Of a DNA stretch of 21,938 nucleotides, positions 319 through 8,039 are shown piece after piece (the first letter of the stretch is position 1; each line of letters starts with the position of its first letter). The stretch covers positions 1-21,938 of IMG/VR virus record IMGVR_UViG_3300009537_000203; one strand, given 5' to 3'. The DNA comes from a virus. A program made the position numbers and the translations under genes. Under the pieces are notes generated by a model that was given only the letters and a program-made list of their open reading frames with translations, was not told the DNA's origin and did no database searches.

Positions 319-861
319 ATGTCCACTCTCTTCAAGAGTTTGAGATCCCGCGTACCAGAAGAGGTACCGGAGCGATCTCCAAGCCCTGAGATCCTCGACA
401 TCACGCGGTATCTGTCCGCGCATCAGGTCGAGGCCCTCTCGTTCCTCCTGCAGGGCAGCACGCCCCGGCAGGTCGCCTCGAAGATGGGCGTCAAACTCGC
501 CACCGTCCGCAGTTGGATGACGGACGACGATTTCAAGTGGGCCATGAACTACTCCCGCGCGGAGATCATGCAGCACTCTGTCGATGCCTTGCGTGTTGCA
601 CAGAACGCGGCCGTTACCCTCATGCTCGACGTGATCCAAGACCCCTCAGAGCCCACCACCACGCGCATACGAGCCGCAGGGAAGGTGCTCGACATCACCA
701 CCAAACACGGCGGCATGCCCACGCTCCCGACCGAGGACTCCGCGCGCAGTGTCGAGGAGGAACTCCGGGCCCTTGCAGACAAGGACCCGGATGTGACCGA
801 GCTCCTGCTCGCGCTCGACGAGCGGATGCAGGCCGCACGGGATGAGGCCGGCAGTGGGTAG
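319..861 (+). CDS. Putative terminase small subunit
   Basis: A 180-aa protein directly before the large terminase, the usual place for the DNA-recognition subunit that selects the packaging site and recruits the motor. Residues about 46-67 form a helix-turn-helix-like segment (STPRQVASKMGV..ATVRSW), as in small terminases and other DNA-binding proteins. The following helical part would be the oligomerisation region, and the C-terminus (about 145-180) is acidic and helical. The frame is open from 235, but I chose ATG 319 because the 28 residues before it look non-coding; the ribosome site is weak with either start. The 3' end overlaps the large terminase start by 20 bases, indicating translational coupling. 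The function rests on position plus the HTH; sequence similarity is not strong enough to be sure. Confidence 0.7.
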   Translation: MSTLFKSLRSRVPEEVPERSPSPEILDITRYLSAHQVEALSFLLQGSTPRQVASKMGVKLATVRSWMTDDDFKWAMNYSRAEIMQHSVDALRVAQNAAVTLMLDVIQDPSEPTTTRIRAAGKVLDITTKHGGMPTLPTEDSARSVEEELRALADKDPDVTELLLALDERMQAARDEAGSG

Positions 862-3169
862 CCCCCTGCGCGATGCGGCCGAGAAACTCGGAGCCATCGC
901 CACCCCCGATCGCATGGCAGCCCGCACGGGCGCGTTCATCCGCCACCCGATGGCAGTCCATGTGGGCGAGCAGATCGCGGCTCATGTCAAGGAGGGCAAG
1001 CGCACGGGTGATCCGTGGTATCTCATGCTCGAGGCCCCTCCCAGGCACGGGAAATCCATGCTCGTGTCCCACAAGACACCCCCATGGTTCCTGCAAGACT
1101 GGCCGGGGGGTCATGTCGGGATCGTCACCTACGAGGCCAACTTCAGTGCGTCCTGGGGGCGCAAGGTACGCGACGACATCGAGGAGTACGGAGGGGACTA
1201 CGGGCTCGCCGTGCGCCGGGATTCGCGCTCCATCAGCGACTTCCATCTCACCAACGGCTCCAACGTCTTCTGCACGGGAGTGGGCGGTCCCCTGACGGGT
1301 CGGGGTTTCCATCTGCTCGTGATCGACGACCCCATCAAGAACGCCGAGGAGGCCGCGTCCCCCACGATCCGCGAGAAGCACTGGGACTGGTGGCAATCGA
1401 CCGCATCGACCCGTATCGAGCCAGGCGGCGGCGTGGTGCTGATGATGTGCATGACTGGAGACACTTCAGTGCTCATGGCAGACAGCACCGAACGCCCGTT
1501 GCGAGACATCCGGCCGGGGGATCAGGTTGCCACGTACGATGCCGGCAGGTTGGGCACCTCCACCGTCAGGAACCACAAGAGCAATGGTCCTGATTTCATC
1601 CATGAGATCAAGACGACTTGTGGTACTACTGTCCGTGCAAACGCGCGCCACCCCTTCCTAGTGCGCGAGAACGGACAGGTGCGGTGGACCCGACTGAGAG
1701 ACTTGAGGCCCGGCCAGAAAATCGTAACCGCAAGGGGCGGTGGGGGAAGTGGCGCGGTGTGGTGTGCGGCATCGACGAGTGCGACGAGCCGGTCAGCGCG
1801 CGGGGGTACTGCAAGAAGCACTATGGCAGGAAGTACTGGGCAGATGGCAATCGCCCTCCCTCGACAAGACCCCGAGCCCAACGGAACGCTAAACTCAAGC
1901 ACCTATACGGAATCACCCTGGCTGAGTACGATGCCATGTTCCTGTCTCAGGGTGGGGTGTGCGCGGTGTGCGATCAGCCCCCAGGCGATAACGTACCAGC
2001 GAAGTGGCGGGGGAAGCTCGCCGTCGACCACTGCCACGACACCAACGTCGTCCGGGGGCTGCTGTGCAACCACTGTAACCTTGCCGTCGGGTACGCCAAG
2101 ACAGAGGCCACAGCCAGAGCAATCGTGGAGTACTTCAGACTTCACCACGGCGCAGATTGAGAGCATCACCCCCGCGGGGGTCGAGGAAGTCTTCGACGTC
2201 CAGATCGACCGGACGGAGAACTTCATCGCCAACGGCTTGGTGAGCCACAACACCCGCTGGAACGAAGACGACCTCGCCGGGCGGCTGCTCAAGGCCGCGA
2301 AAGAAGACCCCAAAGCGCCCCAGTGGCACCGCTTCCGCTACCCCGCGATCTGCGAGAGCGACGACGATCCGCTCGGCAGATCCCCCGGTGAGGCCCTCTG
2401 GCCGGACCGCTACGACATCGAGCAACTCGATCAGACCCGCCGGCGCTCGGGTGTCTACTACTGGGCCGCGATGTACCAGCAGCGCCCCGCCCCTCTCGAG
2501 GGCGGGCTGTTCGAGCGCCGTTGGTTCATCCCCGTCGAGGCCCCCTGCCAGCCCCATCTCCCCCGCGTGCGCGCGTGGGACCTCGCCGGCGGATCTCGCC
2601 GCGGCGCAGACTGGTCCGCGGGCGTGCTCTGGGCCCGGAGCCCGACGTCCCCACACCACGTCCGCCTCGAAGACATCAACCGCTTCCAGGGCCGCCCGCG
2701 TGACGTCGAGGAAGAGGTGCTGGCCACCGCGCAGAGCGACGGCCCGTCCGTGGTCATCCAGATCCAGCAGGACCCCGGGCAGGCCGGTCTCGCGCAGGTC
2801 GAGGCCCTGCAGCGGCTGCTGCGGGGGTATCGCGTCGAGGTCTACCGCCCCACGGGCGACAAGGAGACGCGCGCGATCCCGCTTTCCGCAAAGGCCATGG
2901 GCGGCTTCGTCGAGTACGTTCGCGGAGACTGGAACGACAACTTCTTCGCCGAGGGCGCGATGTTCCCCAACGGGGCCAACGACGACCAGATCGACGCCGC
3001 CTCCGCAGGGCTCCAGCTCATCGAGACCATGGCCCCGCGCTCGTTCTTCTATCTCCCTGAAGATACGTATGCCCCCATTCGCCGGCAGACTGCTACACTG
3101 CTCGGCGACATGACCCCCCGCTCCGGCCGCTCCCGTGGCGACTACCGTAAGGTCTTTCGGGATTGGTGA
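842..3169 (+). CDS. terL: Terminase large subunit, interrupted by an intein
   Basis: Packaging motor ATPase and nuclease that translocates DNA into the prohead. The N-extein (residues 1-202) carries Walker A APPRHGKS (65-72) and Walker B LLVIDD (158-163). The C-extein starts with TRWNEDDLAGRLL and holds the RNase H-like nuclease signatures RAWDLAGG, QQDPGQAG and NDDQIDAAS, with their acidic residues. Removing residues 203-470 (1448-2251) joins ..GGVVLMM to TRWNEDD.., restoring the motif expected in uninterrupted terminases. The spliced product would be 507 aa, a normal size for the family. ATG 842 overlaps the small terminase; GTG 854 is an alternative start. In the unspliced frame, residues about 297-430 are low-complexity Ser/Thr/Gly-rich text because the true coding there is an HNH gene in another frame. 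Activity should depend on splicing, since the intein breaks an essential ATPase motif. Confidence 0.93.
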   Translation: MRPAVGSPLRDAAEKLGAIATPDRMAARTGAFIRHPMAVHVGEQIAAHVKEGKRTGDPWYLMLEAPPRHGKSMLVSHKTPPWFLQDWPGGHVGIVTYEANFSASWGRKVRDDIEEYGGDYGLAVRRDSRSISDFHLTNGSNVFCTGVGGPLTGRGFHLLVIDDPIKNAEEAASPTIREKHWDWWQSTASTRIEPGGGVVLMMCMTGDTSVLMADSTERPLRDIRPGDQVATYDAGRLGTSTVRNHKSNGPDFIHEIKTTCGTTVRANARHPFLVRENGQVRWTRLRDLRPGQKIVTARGGGGSGAVWCAASTSATSRSARGGTARSTMAGSTGQMAIALPRQDPEPNGTLNSSTYTESPWLSTMPCSCLRVGCARCAISPQAITYQRSGGGSSPSTTATTPTSSGGCCATTVTLPSGTPRQRPQPEQSWSTSDFTTAQIESITPAGVEEVFDVQIDRTENFIANGLVSHNTRWNEDDLAGRLLKAAKEDPKAPQWHRFRYPAICESDDDPLGRSPGEALWPDRYDIEQLDQTRRRSGVYYWAAMYQQRPAPLEGGLFERRWFIPVEAPCQPHLPRVRAWDLAGGSRRGADWSAGVLWARSPTSPHHVRLEDINRFQGRPRDVEEEVLATAQSDGPSVVIQIQQDPGQAGLAQVEALQRLLRGYRVEVYRPTGDKETRAIPLSAKAMGGFVEYVRGDWNDNFFAEGAMFPNGANDDQIDAASAGLQLIETMAPRSFFYLPEDTYAPIRRQTATLLGDMTPRSGRSRGDYRKVFRDW
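1448..2251 (+). other. Intein in the large terminase, 268 codons in the host frame
   Basis: The intein starts at Cys (TGC 1448-1450) with block A CMTGDTSV. Block B is GTTVRANARHPFLV, with the expected His at intein residue 68 but Asn in place of the usual Thr at 65. Block F is VEEVFDVQ...NFIANG, and block G ends SHN at 2251. The +1 extein residue is Thr (ACC 2252). The insertion point is the conserved TRW motif of the terminase ATPase domain. Between about 1735 and 2157 the host frame has no recognisable DOD or HNH domain; it is a shadow of the endonuclease VII-type ORF in the -1 frame. The splicing domains look complete, so protein splicing is predicted. Confidence 0.9.
1684..2160 (+). CDS. 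HNH endonuclease (endonuclease VII family) nested out of frame in the terminase intein
   Basis: Frame -1 relative to the terminase. The product has a Cys/His cluster (CGIDECDEP, then GYCKKHY) followed by a recombination endonuclease VII-type core: LKHLYGITLAEYDAMF, a CAVCDQPP zinc-binding pair, the catalytic VDHCHD motif, and LLCNHCNLAVG supplying the second Cys pair and the HNH Asn. It would nick or cut intein-less terminase alleles, so acting as the homing enzyme. The start is unresolved: the frame is open from TTG 1618; GTG 1684 has a weak GGACAGG upstream; GTG 1759, just before the first zinc Cys, has GGGGGAAG at 1742-1749. The stop TGA 2158-2160 falls exactly where intein block F begins. 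Alternatively it is expressed as a frameshift product of the terminase, or two sequencing indels have displaced an originally in-frame domain. Confidence 0.8.
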   Translation: MDPTERLEARPENRNRKGRWGKWRGVVCGIDECDEPVSARGYCKKHYGRKYWADGNRPPSTRPRAQRNAKLKHLYGITLAEYDAMFLSQGGVCAVCDQPPGDNVPAKWRGKLAVDHCHDTNVVRGLLCNHCNLAVGYAKTEATARAIVEYFRLHHGAD

Positions 3170-3172
3170 CGC

Positions 3173-4615
3173 ATGAGTGACACATCAGGCGGCGGCGGAA
3201 ACTTCATCTTCTCCCGCGGAGTCAACGCAAGGCTCTACGCCCACGCGCTCGCTGCGGCCTACCGCAACGGCATCGAGATCTGGGACCCGGACTACTCGCT
3301 CGCGCGAGATCCCGAGTTCTGGGAGAAGGTCCAGCGCGATCCCAAGATCAAGGGTCCGATGGACAAGCGCTTGCACAGCGTCGCCGGCCGTGACTGGCAG
3401 GTCAACCCCGGCGCCCGGAACCCCGAGAAGCGCGATGAGAAGGCCACGGACGTGGCCGAGCGCATCCTCGAGCACCTCGACAACTTCATCGAGGGCCGCT
3501 ACAACCTCGCCAAGGGCGTCTTCCAGGGCGAGTCGTGGTCGTACATCGAGGGCGAGCACAAGACGCTCGACATCGGCGGGAAGAAGCAGAAGTGGTGGGT
3601 CCCGGTCCGACTCAGGTCGATCGACAAGCGGCGTATCCGGCAAGTACCTGTTTGGGTTCCCGGCGCAGGCGGCAACGACTCGTTGCAGATGCACTACGAA
3701 CTCAGCAACATCAACTCAGCGGGTCTCTGGACCCCCATCCGGTCGGATGCGCCGCTCATCCACTTCACCTACGACAACGAAGAGTCCCGCATGGGACACG
3801 GACGCGGCATCGCCGAGGCCATCTACTTCTACCACTACGCCAAGGGCGTCGTCTTCACCGAGGGCCTCGAAGGACTCGAGAAGTGGGCGCGCGGCATGGT
3901 CGTCGCCAAGATGGACCGCATGGGCACGGGCGCGACCACGAACGAGGACACCGCCCAGGCATACCTGACCCAGCTCGAGCGCCAGCGCACGGGCGGGATC
4001 ATGGTCATCGACGACAAGGACGAGGTCGAGGTCCACTGGCCCAACGGCAAGGGCGGCGAGATGGTCTTCGACTGGCTGCACTACCTCGATGCAGCCATCG
4101 CCGAGGTCATCATGGGCCAGGTCATTCCCTCGGTGGGCGGCTCGGTCATCGCGACGGAGATCACCCGCGGCCGTGAGGAAGGCTCCGCCACCGAGACGCT
4201 GCTCGGCTACGACCGCGCGCTGATCTACAACTGCCTCACGCGTGATCTGCTCGGGCACATCTGGTACTGGAACCAGATCCAGCTGCGCGAGATCGGTCTC
4301 GGCGACGCACGCATGCCCAAGCTGAGCCCCGTCAGTGTGGACGACTCCAAGCCCAAGGAAGCGATCGACATCATCTCCGCGGCAGCCACGATCGGCATTC
4401 CGCTCATCCGCAAGCAAGTCTACGACCGCATCGGCTTCGGGATGCCCGGCGAGAACGACGACGTCTTCGAAGGCGTTCTCGCGCCCGGCAGCCAGGCCCT
4501 CGATCAGAACGGGGTTCCCATCAACAACCAGGCCATGACCGGAGACGCGACCGGGAACGCGAAGGGGCCGGTCAAGGGCGCGTCCCCGCCCCCGTCCCGA
4601 CCATCTGACAACTAG
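3173..4615 (+). CDS. Portal protein, DUF935 / Mu gp29-like
   Basis: A 480-aa protein that should form the dodecameric portal at one capsid vertex, through which DNA enters and to which the tail attaches. The N-terminal text (DPDYSLARDPEFWEKVQRDPKIKGPMDKRL) and the segment with GRDWQV, WVPVRLRSIDKRR and LIHFTYDNEESRMGHG match the Mu gp29-like family. The helical region with ITRGREEGSATETLLGYDRALIYN and the final domain with DIISAAATIGIPLIRKQVYDRIGFGMP also fit. Length is in the family range. It starts 3 bases after the terminase stop, and its start has only a weak purine-rich leader, suggesting coupling. The C-terminal 30 residues are Gly/Pro/Asn-rich and probably disordered. Confidence 0.88.
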   Translation: MSDTSGGGGNFIFSRGVNARLYAHALAAAYRNGIEIWDPDYSLARDPEFWEKVQRDPKIKGPMDKRLHSVAGRDWQVNPGARNPEKRDEKATDVAERILEHLDNFIEGRYNLAKGVFQGESWSYIEGEHKTLDIGGKKQKWWVPVRLRSIDKRRIRQVPVWVPGAGGNDSLQMHYELSNINSAGLWTPIRSDAPLIHFTYDNEESRMGHGRGIAEAIYFYHYAKGVVFTEGLEGLEKWARGMVVAKMDRMGTGATTNEDTAQAYLTQLERQRTGGIMVIDDKDEVEVHWPNGKGGEMVFDWLHYLDAAIAEVIMGQVIPSVGGSVIATEITRGREEGSATETLLGYDRALIYNCLTRDLLGHIWYWNQIQLREIGLGDARMPKLSPVSVDDSKPKEAIDIISAAATIGIPLIRKQVYDRIGFGMPGENDDVFEGVLAPGSQALDQNGVPINNQAMTGDATGNAKGPVKGASPPPSRPSDN

Positions 4616-4625
4616 GAGATGAACC

Positions 4626-4871
4626 ATGGACAAGCCCGTCTTCACCCACTCGCCCGATGCGGTGCTCGATGCATTGCAATGGCTCGCCGAGGGCCACACA
4701 GTCACCCTGGGTAATGTGTTCCATTCAGCCTTGGGCGCTTGGCGTTGCATCATCGTCCCCTACAAGGGCGACATCGGTACCCCAAGCGTGGGGGGTACCC
4801 CTCAAGAAGCGCTCTACAACCAGTTGATGGAGCGGGACATCCCTTGGCCTCCCCCGGACTCGGATGCCTGA
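4626..4871 (+). CDS. Small protein of unknown function
   Basis: An 81-aa protein I do not recognise. It starts with a good ribosome site (AGGAG 4614-4618, spacing 7) that overlaps the portal stop codon, and ends overlapping the next gene by 8 bases, so it is clearly within the head operon. The N-terminal half is helical and acidic (SPDAVLDALQWLAEGHTV), followed by a strand-rich segment (AWRCIIVPYKGDI) and a Pro-rich tail (PWPPPDSDA). No transmembrane segment or signal peptide is visible. Its position between portal and head morphogenesis protein suggests a small accessory head factor, but that is inference. Confidence 0.75.
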   Translation: MDKPVFTHSPDAVLDALQWLAEGHTVTLGNVFHSALGAWRCIIVPYKGDIGTPSVGGTPQEALYNQLMERDIPWPPPDSDA

Positions 4872-6636
4872 CGACCCCCTGCCGAAGCGCAACCCGCTCG
4901 AGCCCTCGTTCCTCGAGATCCTGCGGTCCTTCGTCATGGGCAAGGACTACCCCGAGGCCGAGCTCAACCTCGCGGTCAACGCGTACCTCGAAACCCTCCG
5001 CGCGTACCTGCTCGGGGTACGCAAGACCATCAGGGCGGCCAAGATCGTGGCCCCGTCCGCGGTGCTGGCCTTCTTCAGCCAACTCCCCAAGCCCGACTTC
5101 AAGCGCACCGAAGAGATCGTCCTCGGGCACGCCCCGATGCCCGCCCGGCTCACCCCCGCGCTCAACAACCTGCTCAGCCGGGACCCGTATCTCGCGCAGA
5201 CTGCCGAGGAAGCCGCTGCGACCTTCCGCGCAGGGGGCATCTCGTTCGCTCGCGCGGGCACGACCAGGGTCACCCAACACGTCCAAGAGGTCATCGGGGC
5301 TGCCATGGAGGCCGGCGTGCCCGGCGTCGAGGGCCGGGACATCGTCGCGCAGGCCACGGGCTGGACCAAGGGCTACGCAGAGACGGCGTACCGGACCACG
5401 GCCATGTCCGCGTACACGGGCGGGACCATCGACACGCACCAGAAGCCGTTCATCAGCAGCATCTTCCCCGGCTTCGAGGTCATCGGGTCCAATGACGCCG
5501 ACACCCGCCGCGGGCGCCCCGAAGACCGGGGGGAGAACCATCTCGCCACGCTTCACCTCGTCGCGGAGACGAATGACCCCATCTGGCAGACCCATACGCC
5601 GCCCTTCGGATTCTCGTGCGTCGCGGGGGATACGCGGGTCTCCGGCAGGACCCTCGCCATTACGCGGTCACTCTATGAGGGTCCAATGGTCGAGGTACTC
5701 GTGGGGGGCGGCACGCGGCTTTGCGTAACCGTCAATCACCCCATACCGACCTCCTCCGGGTGGAAGCCTGCGCACCTTGTCGGTCCAGGCGATCGCGTAC
5801 TCCGCGACCGTAGGGTAGTCGATGCGCTCGATCGCGACCCCCGTGCGCGAGTCCCGGGCGCGGATGTGAGGGCACACGACGACAAGGATGTCCCACCCAC
5901 GGCCGAAGAGGTATTCCGCGCGCTCTCGCTTCAGGGAGTACGGGTTAGCTGCCGTCAGGTGCTTCCGGACGATTTCGATGGCGACGGGAGCCGCATGCAA
6001 GGCGATGTCGAGGTTGTAGCGGCCGACAGCCAACTCCTCGGTCGCTGGGTAGCCGCGCGAACGAAGGCACTCAGCGACCTCGTGGTTGTGGAACACACTG
6101 GCACGGTGCCCGACAACTTGAACACCGCGCGCGGTTCGGCAAGCAGCCTCCTCGCTGTTGGGGCACCCGGCCTTGGCGGTCCAGGCTCGTCTGGTGATCC
6201 GGTCTATCATGTCATCGAACTTCCCGGCTTCTCGTGCGCGCTGCCAGCGCAGTTTGCCGGCATCGGACCCACCGCGAGGTTGGATTCCGCGCTCTCCCAA
6301 GCGTGCGATGAAAGTGGGGCGCGAGACCCCTGCTTCGCGAGCAATCTTCAAGACAGATTCCCCCGCGAGGTAGCGTTCGATGAGGTCGTCGAGGTTCGGT
6401 ATCTCGATGCGAGTCCATGTCATGTCTACGACCTTATCACGGACGTTGGCTGGTTCACCGCTAATTCTATTGCTGTCAGCAACTGCAGGCACACTTTGCG
6501 GTCGATCTCTCGCTTCGAGGCCAAGGACCGCGGCTGGCTCAACGCAGACGGCCGTCTGGTGCGCCAGGAGCCCCCAGACTTCGCTGACTACAGTCCGAAA
6601 GAAGGTTTTGGTGGGAAACCTGCATTCAGGACTTGA
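4864..6636 (+). CDS. Mu gpF-like head morphogenesis protein, interrupted by an intein
   Basis: A minor head protein bound near the portal in Mu-like and SPP1-like phages. The N-extein (residues 1-251) is helical, with the family text IVAQATGWTKGYAETAYRTTAMSAYTGG, then EVIGSNDADTRRGRP and HTPPFGFS. The C-extein begins CRHTLRSISRFEAKDRGW. Excising residues 252-540 (5617-6483) recreates PPFGFSCRHTLRSIS, the conserved metal-ligand-like motif of the Mu F domain, and gives a 301-aa protein. ATG 4864 overlaps the preceding gene by 8 bases. The unspliced in-frame linker (about residues 325-500) is not a recognisable domain and lies antisense to an endonuclease gene. The C-extein is only 50 residues, so the intein sits close to the C-terminus. 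Confidence 0.88.
   Translation: MPDDPLPKRNPLEPSFLEILRSFVMGKDYPEAELNLAVNAYLETLRAYLLGVRKTIRAAKIVAPSAVLAFFSQLPKPDFKRTEEIVLGHAPMPARLTPALNNLLSRDPYLAQTAEEAAATFRAGGISFARAGTTRVTQHVQEVIGAAMEAGVPGVEGRDIVAQATGWTKGYAETAYRTTAMSAYTGGTIDTHQKPFISSIFPGFEVIGSNDADTRRGRPEDRGENHLATLHLVAETNDPIWQTHTPPFGFSCVAGDTRVSGRTLAITRSLYEGPMVEVLVGGGTRLCVTVNHPIPTSSGWKPAHLVGPGDRVLRDRRVVDALDRDPRARVPGADVRAHDDKDVPPTAEEVFRALSLQGVRVSCRQVLPDDFDGDGSRMQGDVEVVAADSQLLGRWVAARTKALSDLVVVEHTGTVPDNLNTARGSASSLLAVGAPGLGGPGSSGDPVYHVIELPGFSCALPAQFAGIGPTARLDSALSQACDESGARDPCFASNLQDRFPREVAFDEVVEVRYLDASPCHVYDLITDVGWFTANSIAVSNCRHTLRSISRFEAKDRGWLNADGRLVRQEPPDFADYSPKEGFGGKPAFRT
5617..6483 (+). other. Intein in the head morphogenesis protein, 289 codons
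   Basis: The intein starts at Cys (TGC 5617-5619) with block A CVAGDTRVSG. Block B is CVTVNHPIP, with Thr 38 and His 41 in the TxxH arrangement. A GPGDRVL segment follows at 56-62. The C-terminal part has block F CHVYDLITDVGWFTANS and ends AVSN, followed by Cys +1 (TGC 6484). The penultimate residue is Ser where most inteins have His; other residues are known to substitute there, sometimes with slower splicing. There is no in-frame endonuclease: the linker is the sense-strand shadow of a - strand endonuclease gene. The flanking extein motif is restored exactly on excision, which supports functional splicing. Confidence 0.87.
5668..6423 (-). CDS. Antisense homing endonuclease, HTH plus Vsr-like nuclease, nested in the intein
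   Basis: A 251-aa protein encoded on the strand opposite to its host intein and wholly inside it. Residues about 12-47 form a resolvase-type helix-turn-helix (LIERYLAGESVLKIAREAGV..PTFIARLGERGI), the DNA-binding module often attached to phage homing enzymes. Residues about 111-185 resemble the Vsr/DUF559-like PD-(D/E)xK fold: HNHEVAECLRSRGY, then GRYNLDIAL with Asp 139, then PVAIEI with Glu 150, and a GRGWDILVVV strand. The usual Lys of ExK is not present. The frame is open from 6492, but ATG 6423 is preferred: AAGGT lies 7 bases upstream on this strand (6435-6431) and the start falls at the inner edge of block F. The C-terminal about 45 residues are antisense to block B. Codon phases of the two strands coincide. 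Confidence 0.82.
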   Translation of the reverse strand: MTWTRIEIPNLDDLIERYLAGESVLKIAREAGVSRPTFIARLGERGIQPRGGSDAGKLRWQRAREAGKFDDMIDRITRRAWTAKAGCPNSEEAACRTARGVQVVGHRASVFHNHEVAECLRSRGYPATEELAVGRYNLDIALHAAPVAIEIVRKHLTAANPYSLKRERAEYLFGRGWDILVVVCPHIRARDSRTGVAIERIDYPTVAEYAIAWTDKVRRLPPGGGRYGVIDGYAKPRAAPHEYLDHWTLIE

Positions 6637-6678
6637 CTTCTAATGGTTAGCACCCCAGACTTTCCACGAGAGTCTTGA

Positions 6679-6697
6679 CTGCAGCCCTCGGGCGCAG
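6679..6697. other. Small hairpin in the gap before the protease gene
   Basis: CTGC (6679-6682) pairs with GCAG (6694-6697) and GCC with GGC around a CTCG loop, with one bulged A. It lies in the 83-base gap (6637-6719), otherwise featureless; a TTGACT hexamer at 6675-6680 has no convincing -10 partner. No T-run follows, so terminator function is doubtful. It could be a processing or regulatory hairpin separating the head morphogenesis and protease genes. Confidence 0.3.
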
Positions 6698-6719
6698 AGT
6701 TCGGCTCGTCCTCTAAAAG

Positions 6720-8039
6720 ATGACGACGAACTCCCTGCCGACCGACTACGAAGCAGTCAGCAACCCTGACGGTACGTGGACCATTCTGGACGTGCCCATC
6801 TTCGGGGAAATCCCCGCGAAGACGCCCGGCGCGACCCCGATCGTGTCCCGGGAATGGCTCGAGACAGCCGTTGCCAAGGACCAGGCCCGGCGCGCGGGCG
6901 GGTTCGCTTCCCCCCTCCACATCCACCACCACGAGCACCACGCCCCCGGCAAGAAGCCCGAGCGTGCGGGTCAACTGAAGCTCAAAGAGGTGCGTGGAGC
7001 CCACTACGACGGGGCCGAGGTCGGGATCGTGTTCGCAGACCTCGAGAAGGTCCCCGACTCGATCTACCAGCGCATCAAGCGCGGGGCACTGCCCTACCGC
7101 TCGGTCGAGATCCTCGACATGAAGGAGAACGAGATCTCCTCATGTGCGCTGCTCGACTCAGAGGTCCCCTTCTTCCGGTTCCCCAACCTCACGGTGTCGA
7201 TCGAGCGCCCCAACTTGCGCTTTTCGGCACCCTCGAGGCTTCTCAATTCGCCTGTGACGGCGTGCGTCAAGAGTGGTCGCACCCGAGGTTTCCTGTTCAA
7301 CGCCATGGGAGTCACCCTGATGGAAGACACCGCGACCACCGAGACAGAGGTCGAGACCGCCGAGATCCCCGAGATCGAGGCCGAAACGCCCGAGAACCCC
7401 TCCGACGCCGCGGTCGAGACAGCCGCCGAGCGCATGTTCAGCCTGCTCGAGACCTTCGCGGCGAAGGTCGAGAAGGTCGAAGCGCGACTCGACGAGCTCT
7501 CGCAGATGCCCACGCCCGACATCACGCCGGACTCCCCGGTGATCGGCGAGGAACTCAACGAGACCCCCGCCGTCATCGAGGAGGTCACGACCTTCGACGC
7601 CGGCAGCGCCGCGCTTCATGGACGCCTGATGGCGCTCGAGGAGAAGCTCGCCGCGCAGGACGCAGAGAAGCGCACGGCAGCGAGCTACTCGGCTGCGCTC
7701 GCCGCGCTCGAGGGCTACACCCTCTCTGAGAAGAGCAAGGAGACGCTGCGGAAGTTCGCCGCGATGGGCCAGGACCCCCTGGACACCGTCGTCGAGACCT
7801 TCCAGGCGTCTCTCCCGCAGACTCCCCCGCCCACCATCGAGGCTTCCGCCTCCGGCCCGGCCCACGCCGAGACCGACGAGGTCGCCGCCTACTCCGCCGA
7901 CACCAAAAAGCACGCCCGTGCGCGTGCTCTCGCGCTGCAGTTCGAGTCGCTCAAGCCGGTCGGCCTGAGCTGCTCACTCGCCGAGTTCATCGAATCCAAC
8001 ATGGACCGAGCCCCCACGGCTCCGGCCCCGAAGGAGTAG
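6720..8039 (+). CDS. Prohead protease with C-terminal scaffold domain, Mu gpI-like
   Basis: A 439-aa protein. Residues 1-160 form the protease part: VPIFGEIP near the start, a dense His cluster (67-74, LHIHHHEHHA), VGIVFADLEKVPDSIYQRI, and ALPYRSVEIL, where Ser 128 is the candidate nucleophile by analogy with Mu-type and S78-like head maturation proteases. Residues about 200-430 are acidic and helical, rich in Glu/Ala/Thr with coiled-coil-like stretches (MFSLLETFAAKVEKVEARLDEL and LMALEEKLAAQDAEK), as expected for scaffold. The protein sits just before the decoration and capsid genes, as in Mu. An in-frame TAA lies at 6714-6716, so translation starts at or after 6720; no clear Shine-Dalgarno is present. 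It should drive prohead assembly, then digest the scaffold. An internal start is described separately. Confidence 0.8.
   Translation: MTTNSLPTDYEAVSNPDGTWTILDVPIFGEIPAKTPGATPIVSREWLETAVAKDQARRAGGFASPLHIHHHEHHAPGKKPERAGQLKLKEVRGAHYDGAEVGIVFADLEKVPDSIYQRIKRGALPYRSVEILDMKENEISSCALLDSEVPFFRFPNLTVSIERPNLRFSAPSRLLNSPVTACVKSGRTRGFLFNAMGVTLMEDTATTETEVETAEIPEIEAETPENPSDAAVETAAERMFSLLETFAAKVEKVEARLDELSQMPTPDITPDSPVIGEELNETPAVIEEVTTFDAGSAALHGRLMALEEKLAAQDAEKRTAASYSAALAALEGYTLSEKSKETLRKFAAMGQDPLDTVVETFQASLPQTPPPTIEASASGPAHAETDEVAAYSADTKKHARARALALQFESLKPVGLSCSLAEFIESNMDRAPTAPAPKE
7320..8039 (+). CDS. Internal in-frame scaffold protein, nested in the protease gene
   Basis: ATG 7320 is codon 201 of the protease gene and is preceded by GGGAG (7307-7311) at an 8-base spacing, a much better ribosome site than that of the full-length gene. 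The resulting 239-aa product contains only the acidic, coiled-coil scaffold region. Mu (I/Z) and lambda (C/Nu3) both make a separate scaffold from an in-frame internal start, so the arrangement is known in principle; here it is inferred from the site and the domain boundary. Confidence 0.6.
   Translation: MEDTATTETEVETAEIPEIEAETPENPSDAAVETAAERMFSLLETFAAKVEKVEARLDELSQMPTPDITPDSPVIGEELNETPAVIEEVTTFDAGSAALHGRLMALEEKLAAQDAEKRTAASYSAALAALEGYTLSEKSKETLRKFAAMGQDPLDTVVETFQASLPQTPPPTIEASASGPAHAETDEVAAYSADTKKHARARALALQFESLKPVGLSCSLAEFIESNMDRAPTAPAPKE

Follow-up and report, generated by a model that had tools for sequence, protein, structure and literature searches.

Separate out-of-frame and antisense endonuclease genes as probable partners of two phage inteins

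Intein endonucleases are translated as a fusion with the intein, according to PMC3943268. A different arrangement was described by Arsenault, Gosselin and Gogarten in 2025 (PMC11855218), who found ‘hidden HNH’ insertions of the ShiLan-domain type in phage methylases, encoded out of frame on the same strand; neither a splicing domain nor a ribosome site was detectable in these insertions. Another out-of-frame HNH in a methylase is mentioned in PMC12613952. Same-strand hidden HNHs are already published. Actinobacteriophage inteins with a ‘non-canonical architecture’ are the subject of a preprint by Gosselin, Arsenault and Gogarten (bioRxiv 10.1101/2025.01.02.630785), which PMC11855218 cites for overlapping reading frames; judged from its title and this citation, the preprint may describe inteins of this kind with out-of-frame endonucleases and may cover part of the finding presented here. 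Our literature search, whose coverage mostly did not extend to subscription papers and bioRxiv, found no antisense endonuclease in an intein, and the available excerpts of PMC5050341, PMC9957025 and PMC10448857 contain no antisense case.

We analysed the GC-rich IMG/VR virus record IMGVR_UViG_3300009537_000203, positions 1 to 21,938, here called the window (21,938 nucleotides in full). Two of its genes, a terminase large subunit (TerL) gene and a MuF/gpF-like head protein gene, each contain an intein whose linker also carries a nuclease gene in another reading frame. Mobile inteins with separate out-of-frame or antisense homing endonuclease genes are the best explanation of both loci, to which we assign a probability of about 85%.

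Two interrupted genes and their nested nucleases

The features of both loci in window coordinates are:

842–3169, plus strand: TerL ORF, host of the first intein (PF17289, E 1.4e-9; phrog_38, E 5.8e-77)
1448–2251, plus strand: TerL intein of 268 aa, CMTGDT...VSHN followed by Thr (PF14890, Intein_splicing, E 4.9e-14; alignment with six GenBank TerL inteins)
1684–2160, plus strand: nested endonuclease VII-type HNH gene in the -1 frame relative to TerL, with a probable GTG start and a TGA stop (PF02945, E 2.9e-18; phrog_2914, E 3.8e-29; conserved start column; codon-position test)
4864–6636, plus strand: MuF/gpF-like head protein ORF, host of the second intein (phrog_15127, E 2.6e-26; phrog_220, E 1.8e-6)
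5617–6483, plus strand: MuF intein of 289 aa, CVAGDT...AVSN followed by Cys (alignment of a 46-intein family; model with intein-like splicing halves)
5668–6423, minus strand: antisense gene of 251 aa for an HTH and Vsr-like nuclease, codons back to back with the host frame (PF18741, E 3.5e-5; profile match to I-Bth0305I, 3r3p, E 8.5e-7; model pLDDT 87.2)
6421–6435, minus strand: probable ribosome site (AAGG, 6432–6435) and ATG (6421–6423) of this nuclease; the plus strand encodes intein block F, His-Val-Tyr-Asp-Leu
5884–6096, both strands: possible double-coding core, nuclease residues 110–180 (minus) and intein residues 90–160 (plus) (fourfold-site test; confidence of the sense model)

Both insertions carry the motifs of an intein, namely Cys1, the block B His, a C-terminal Asn and Thr or Cys at +1. 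The TerL intein starts with Cys1 at 1448, has a block B reading ARHPF with Asn in place of Thr three residues before the His, and ends in VSHN (last Asn 2249–2251) before Thr. The MuF intein has Cys1 at 5617, TVNHP in block B and AVSN at its end (last Asn 6481–6483) before Cys; C1, H41, N289 and the +1 Cys are invariant in 46 aligned inteins of the MuF type. Intein_splicing was matched at E ≤0.01 by 43 of these 46 inteins; the window’s own lies outside the 43, with a weak match at E 0.12. Neither host frame contains a stop across its nuclease gene. These stop-free frames and the intein coordinates had been proposed in an earlier note made from the sequence alone, and both were borne out when Cys1, last Asn, +1 residues and frames were checked.

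The HNH ORF clearly passes the curated cut-off of Endonuclease_7 (PF02945; 66 bits versus 23.6). The minus-strand ORF stays below that of MTES_1575 REase (PF18741; 24.2 bits versus 38.2), a family matched at E ≤0.01 by 29 of 57 nuclease family members, and also gives weak Pfam matches to HTH domains. NCBIfam gave no match for either protein. A PDB search with the single antisense nuclease protein yielded chance-level matches only, and a profile of its family found I-Bth0305I as the best PDB profile match. By Foldseek, the nuclease model matched Vsr (1vsr) first and I-Bth0305I (3r3p_B) second with a probability of 0.99, at E values of only 0.02–0.03 and with no match reaching 0.001; VIA Z scores were 9.3 (3hrl), 9.0 (Vsr) and 8.5 (I-Bth0305I). 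Foldseek probability and VIA Z thus place the model among Vsr-like catalytic folds. Asp139 and Glu150 are kept throughout the family and Glu112 in at least 90% of its members, the His-Asp part of the EDxHD motif not being located. The retained invariant residues suggest that the window’s MuF nuclease is active. Pfam, profile and fold matches agree with the earlier reading of two different nuclease types, HNH endonuclease VII and Vsr-like with HTH. A canonical in-frame endonuclease is ruled out for both inteins by the -1 frame in TerL and the antisense orientation in MuF.

Related loci and the open host frame

A tblastn search with the minus-strand protein matched 38 GenBank phage records. In the nine regions opened from these (L002–L010) the match lies antisense inside a MuF-like gene, always in the same phase, and a gene of this kind is hidden in two Guernseyvirinae head genes reached via the sense protein. 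The back-to-back phase has a long open run in the window’s MuF intein and in all 21 GenBank MuF inteins fetched, from phages of Pseudomonas, Cronobacter, Salmonella/Escherichia, Vibrio, Gordonia, Mycobacterium and Haemophilus/Aggregatibacter. The gene tables of these 21 phages list no minus-strand gene over the antisense frame. The ‘head protein’ profile phrog_15127 matches all 46 sense inteins scanned (5617–6087 in the window). The match takes in the part that mirrors the nuclease core; a public profile thus appears to hold the mirror image of an unannotated gene.

IMG/VR scans yielded 86 antisense nuclease loci, of which 76 were examined after ten near-identical ones (L109–L113, L115, L116, L118, L119, L125) had been left out; an alignment of 12 diverse nucleases was set aside as scan query because it was too diverse. 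All 76 loci, at GC contents of 36–70%, lack stops in the back-to-back frame over the match, compared with up to 46 stops in other frames; this frame is also free of stops in three further genome-contig loci. Both intein halves lie within the one back-to-back ORF in 73 of the 76, the others (L151, L187, L189) stopping at contig ends. Among 20 host ORFs scanned, Phage_Mu_F was found in 11 (five below the Pfam cut-off), uracil-DNA glycosylase in two and a portal domain in one; in six no host domain was found. The two glycosylase genes (L168, L170) contain the same antisense nuclease-intein type, and that of L168 runs on into DNA polymerase A. A portal domain and a nuclease-bearing intein share one long ORF in L156 (2216–5257), perhaps a portal-MuF fusion, and a MuF-like ORF with nuclease-intein in L015 (1–2976) also matches an ADP-ribosyltransferase domain near its end (PF03496, E 1.7e-11).

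The HNH gene occupies the same -1 frame in the GenBank phages Affeca, Vivi2, Keitabear, Angelicage, Rofo and Phlyer, which include two pairs with nearly identical inteins. We further examined the best 80 of 562 IMG/VR relatives. Across these best 80 the host frame is stop-free over the HNH match in every locus, with 1–22 stops in the third frame. An intein N half was recognised in 78 loci, 77 of which have it in the host frame; all 79 C halves recognised are in the host frame, and in 76 loci a single ORF contains both halves. One half is absent at a contig end in L033, L052 and L075, and L029, L034 and L104 have one stop each inside the HNH match. In L049 (1900–2760) the N half is in the HNH frame and the C half in the other; this switch amounts to a one-base change near a G run, either real or an error. 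The insertion site, an Asn before Thr-Arg/Trp-Trp, is shared by 84 of 85 TerL loci.

Sequencing error at 1742 or 2150, together with a survey finding no other out-of-frame nuclease inteins, had been named in the earlier note as what would undo its reading. The proposed shift does lie near a G-rich run (about 1736–1746), as the N-half shift of L049 lies near a similar one. A sequencing or assembly error as the source of the TerL frame change is nevertheless contradicted already by the -1 layout with open host frame in the six GenBank phages and the 80 IMG/VR loci, and can practically be dismissed.

Both layouts are carried together by the window, Affeca, Vivi2, Keitabear and Angelicage. Gordonia phage Sampson has the antisense layout in its MuF intein; its TerL gene (L019, 491–3136) is interrupted elsewhere, between GK and ST, by a canonical intein with an in-frame LAGLIDADG domain (PF14528, E 5.6e-8), which means that the TerL gene does not demand decoupling from the nuclease. 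The earlier note had raised a possible benefit of decoupling: strong late production of packaging and head proteins might not bring equal amounts of a DNA-cutting enzyme, and the antisense gene could have its own timing. With the Sampson TerL intein as a counterexample, such a benefit would not be a general requirement of TerL inteins. The search for further out-of-frame nuclease inteins found both layouts in many phages. The common principle put forward earlier, with in-frame splicing halves, a nuclease gene of its own nested between them and an open host frame, is strongly supported by the two surveys, in 76 of 76 antisense loci and in all of the best 80 of 562 HNH loci. Both surveys started from these two families, and the HNH set is the best 80 of 562, so their counts apply to these families and do not give the frequency of the layout among all inteins.

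After synonymous recoding of the nucleases with the window’s codon usage, the host frame was still free of stops in 34% of the HNH trials and 52% of the antisense trials. As open frames are so common by chance, the window alone proves little and the case rests on its relatives. We derived expected sense stops from the Leu and Ser codon usage of flanking ORFs, some of which may be spurious in GC-rich loci. Flanking codons were sufficient in number for 59 of the 76 nuclease loci, and 49 remained after dereplication. About 264 sense stops were expected in these 49 and none was seen. The 15 loci below 50% GC account for about 150 expected and no observed stops (TTA/CTA/TCA 53/30/66 expected, 0/0/0 seen). 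Other A-ending codons also fell below expectation in these 15 loci (ATA 48 of 96, GTA 20 of 47, GCA 33 of 79), others exceeded it (AGA 143 of 64, CAA 112 of 73). A general shortage of A-ending codons could make the expected stops about twofold too high, but could not explain zero. In 50 dereplicated HNH loci from the best 80 of 562, 128 host-frame stops were expected and none seen, compared with 468 expected and 432 seen in the third frame. At the level of sequence, these counts show that the host frame is kept open by selection on synonymous codons. A codon-matched control, as suggested in the earlier note, has a split outcome: openness is unremarkable in the window (P 0.34 and 0.52), and the stop-free frames of the relatives are beyond chance.

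Coding frames, gene starts and possible double coding

We counted nucleotide differences by codon position in 20 pairs of MuF loci, which overlap and include three pairs without intein differences. By sense positions 1/2/3 the counts were 1152/828/2798 for the exteins and 204/73/262, 902/293/575 and 38/32/106 for the N half, the linker and the C end, respectively; the N half gives a mixed signal because the end of the nuclease overlaps it. In the linker the maximum falls on sense position 1, which is nuclease position 3; this peak recurs in all 17 pairs differing there, barely holding in the most distant one (92/59/91). Linker identity between sidste and SE1 is 0.78 in the nuclease reading and 0.52 in the sense reading, and a second set of 26 pairs agrees with constraint on the nuclease frame. 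In TerL, differences within the HNH region are most frequent at host position 2, equal to HNH position 3, in 10 of 10 pairs (4/23/1 for Affeca/Angelicage), and those within either splicing half at host position 3; identity is highest in the HNH frame, and the exteins of the seven distant pairs show no clear peak. The window enters four of the TerL pairs and none of the MuF pairs, as its MuF nuclease is without a close relative. The nuclease frames are the constrained ones in both linkers.

Both gene starts are conserved as well. At the HNH start column, the TGG codon of a conserved intein Trp is preceded by A in 72 loci and by G in 11, giving ATG or GTG in all 83 scorable loci of 85, compared with a purine before 58% of other Trp codons. 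An SD-like tetramer accompanies it in 67 of the 83. From this predicted start, 78 loci can be read through to the HNH without interruption, four run into a stop, and L049 is off frame. In 74 of 74 scored loci, which include near-duplicates, the block F His codon (CAT in 61, CAC in 13) read on the opposite strand supplies the start of the antisense nuclease, with an SD-like tetramer in 72; 17 more nuclease loci fall outside this start pattern. At 60% GC or more, block F uses CAT in 18 of 28 loci, some of them near-duplicates, versus 9.5 expected. Each nuclease start codon thus lies within an intein motif, and the gene starts had to be amended, most likely to GTG 1684 for the HNH, and to ATG 6423 on the minus strand instead of 6492 for the other nuclease. 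A simple sigma-70 promoter and terminator scan of 6300–7000 found none.

The HNH might alternatively be made by a programmed -1 ribosomal frameshift and be fused to the intein N half. Such an origin would agree with the -1 frame of the HNH in all of the best 80 of 562 loci, L049 being exceptional for its N half only. It is at odds with the ATG/GTG column and its SD-like sites, and visual inspection of the alignment with the six GenBank TerL inteins revealed no common slippery site; we regard a frameshift origin as unlikely. That the nucleases are recent relics, formerly active and now without expression, would fit the three HNH loci with internal stops and the four predicted-start frames that meet a stop. 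Conserved starts and the constraint on nuclease amino acids in close pairs make this quite improbable.

Long antisense ORFs are frequent in GC-rich genes. The antisense ORF could accordingly be a spurious shadow of a conserved sense linker from which no nuclease is made, as its openness in the window alone is expected by chance and the sense core is predicted to fold and looks selected (see below). The substitution peak at nuclease position 3, the persistence of the layout at 36–50% GC, the conserved start with its SD-like site and the resemblance to a known homing endonuclease in both sequence and fold render a mere shadow highly improbable.

The sense strand may nevertheless contribute to the antisense inteins. 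In the sense intein model the splicing halves are confident and residues 155–233 unstructured, and an unexpected confident stretch at about 91–140 mirrors the nuclease core, with sense Phe120 opposite nuclease Glu150; Foldseek matches of the whole sense model are mainly inteins. Fourfold sites silent for the nuclease changed at 57 of 268 positions in the core compared with 162 of 396 elsewhere in the linker (12 pairs), and at 36 of 154 compared with 114 of 235 in seven non-overlapping pairs (Fisher p 5e-7), six of which were lower in the core. This suggests, from substitution patterns, that the sense strand is also under selection in the nuclease core. We therefore tentatively consider, at somewhat less than even odds, that the antisense inteins are true two-strand genes: some 70 codons would specify the catalytic core of the nuclease on the minus strand and a folded, selected part of the intein on the plus strand, block F would double as ribosome site and start of the nuclease, and the unit would move between host genes (MuF, uracil-DNA glycosylase) as one bidirectional piece.

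Probable mobility and comparison with described elements

Intein-free alleles exist for both insertion sites, with VLVM directly followed by TRWHEDD in Kewpiedoll TerL and VVN followed by CRCT in Rofo MuF. The inteins of Affeca and Keitabear TerL are identical (0/795) in exteins differing at 55 of 1593 positions, as are those of Fosterous and Affeca MuF (0/948; exteins 106/2283); sidste and E2010 differ at 25 of 816 positions in the intein versus 261 of 1044 outside. Affeca and Vivi2 TerL present the reverse case (inteins 261/793, exteins only 65/1593). Identical inteins in diverged host genes suggest homing, and recombination without homing could also yield such contrasts.

The nucleases might instead serve the phage, in packaging or in the exclusion of competitors, rather than mainly homing. 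The location of both inteins in packaging and head genes would suit such a role, as would the HNH enzymes aiding terminases noted in the discussion of PMC11855218. Given the intein-free relatives, the sharply different divergence of intein and host gene, and the occurrence of the nuclease-intein in uracil-DNA glycosylase genes as well, we consider it improbable.

Under the preferred reading, both elements would be mobile inteins whose homing endonuclease is a separate gene placed across the linker in another frame instead of a fused domain. The host gene would be read straight through because the linker is kept stop-free, and the splicing halves, as predicted from their motifs, would remove the insert. 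The HNH would be translated from its conserved internal start on the host mRNA, and the Vsr-like nuclease, at its conserved ribosome site, from a putative minus-strand RNA; ribosome site and start codon of the latter would be the reverse complement of block F. Each nuclease would then cut intein-free alleles of its host gene, and repair would copy the whole intein, consistent with identical inteins in diverged host genes. In this recurrent arrangement a homing nuclease would be carried along by an intein yet stay separate from the intein protein, and it would offer a natural, testable case of back-to-back double coding. As both layouts recur in many phages, standard annotation may miss a class of mobile genes, and all frames of seemingly empty intein linkers are worth searching.

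Full-length inteins with a fused homing endonuclease, such as PI-SceI, resemble the two elements in blocks A, B, F and G, in their insertion into conserved genes and in a nuclease located between the halves; unlike in the PI-SceI type, the nuclease here is encoded in the -1 frame or on the opposite strand, which excludes it from the intein protein. The antisense nuclease resembles I-Bth0305I and the Vsr-like (EDxHD) homing endonucleases in its best PDB profile match, its top fold matches and the joining of the nuclease to DNA-binding parts, but I-Bth0305I is encoded by a group I intron, whereas the window’s nuclease is antisense inside an intein and has its HTH at the N terminus. Homing endonuclease ORFs of group I introns are likewise separate genes nested in a splicing element. 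Introns are excised at the RNA level, so that an intron ORF need not keep the host frame open; unlike such ORFs, the nuclease codons here must also avoid host-frame stops. The ShiLan type shares with the TerL element a same-strand out-of-frame HNH, a stop-free host frame and mobility. It differs in that intein halves flank both nucleases of the window, SD-like starts are common and one nuclease is antisense.
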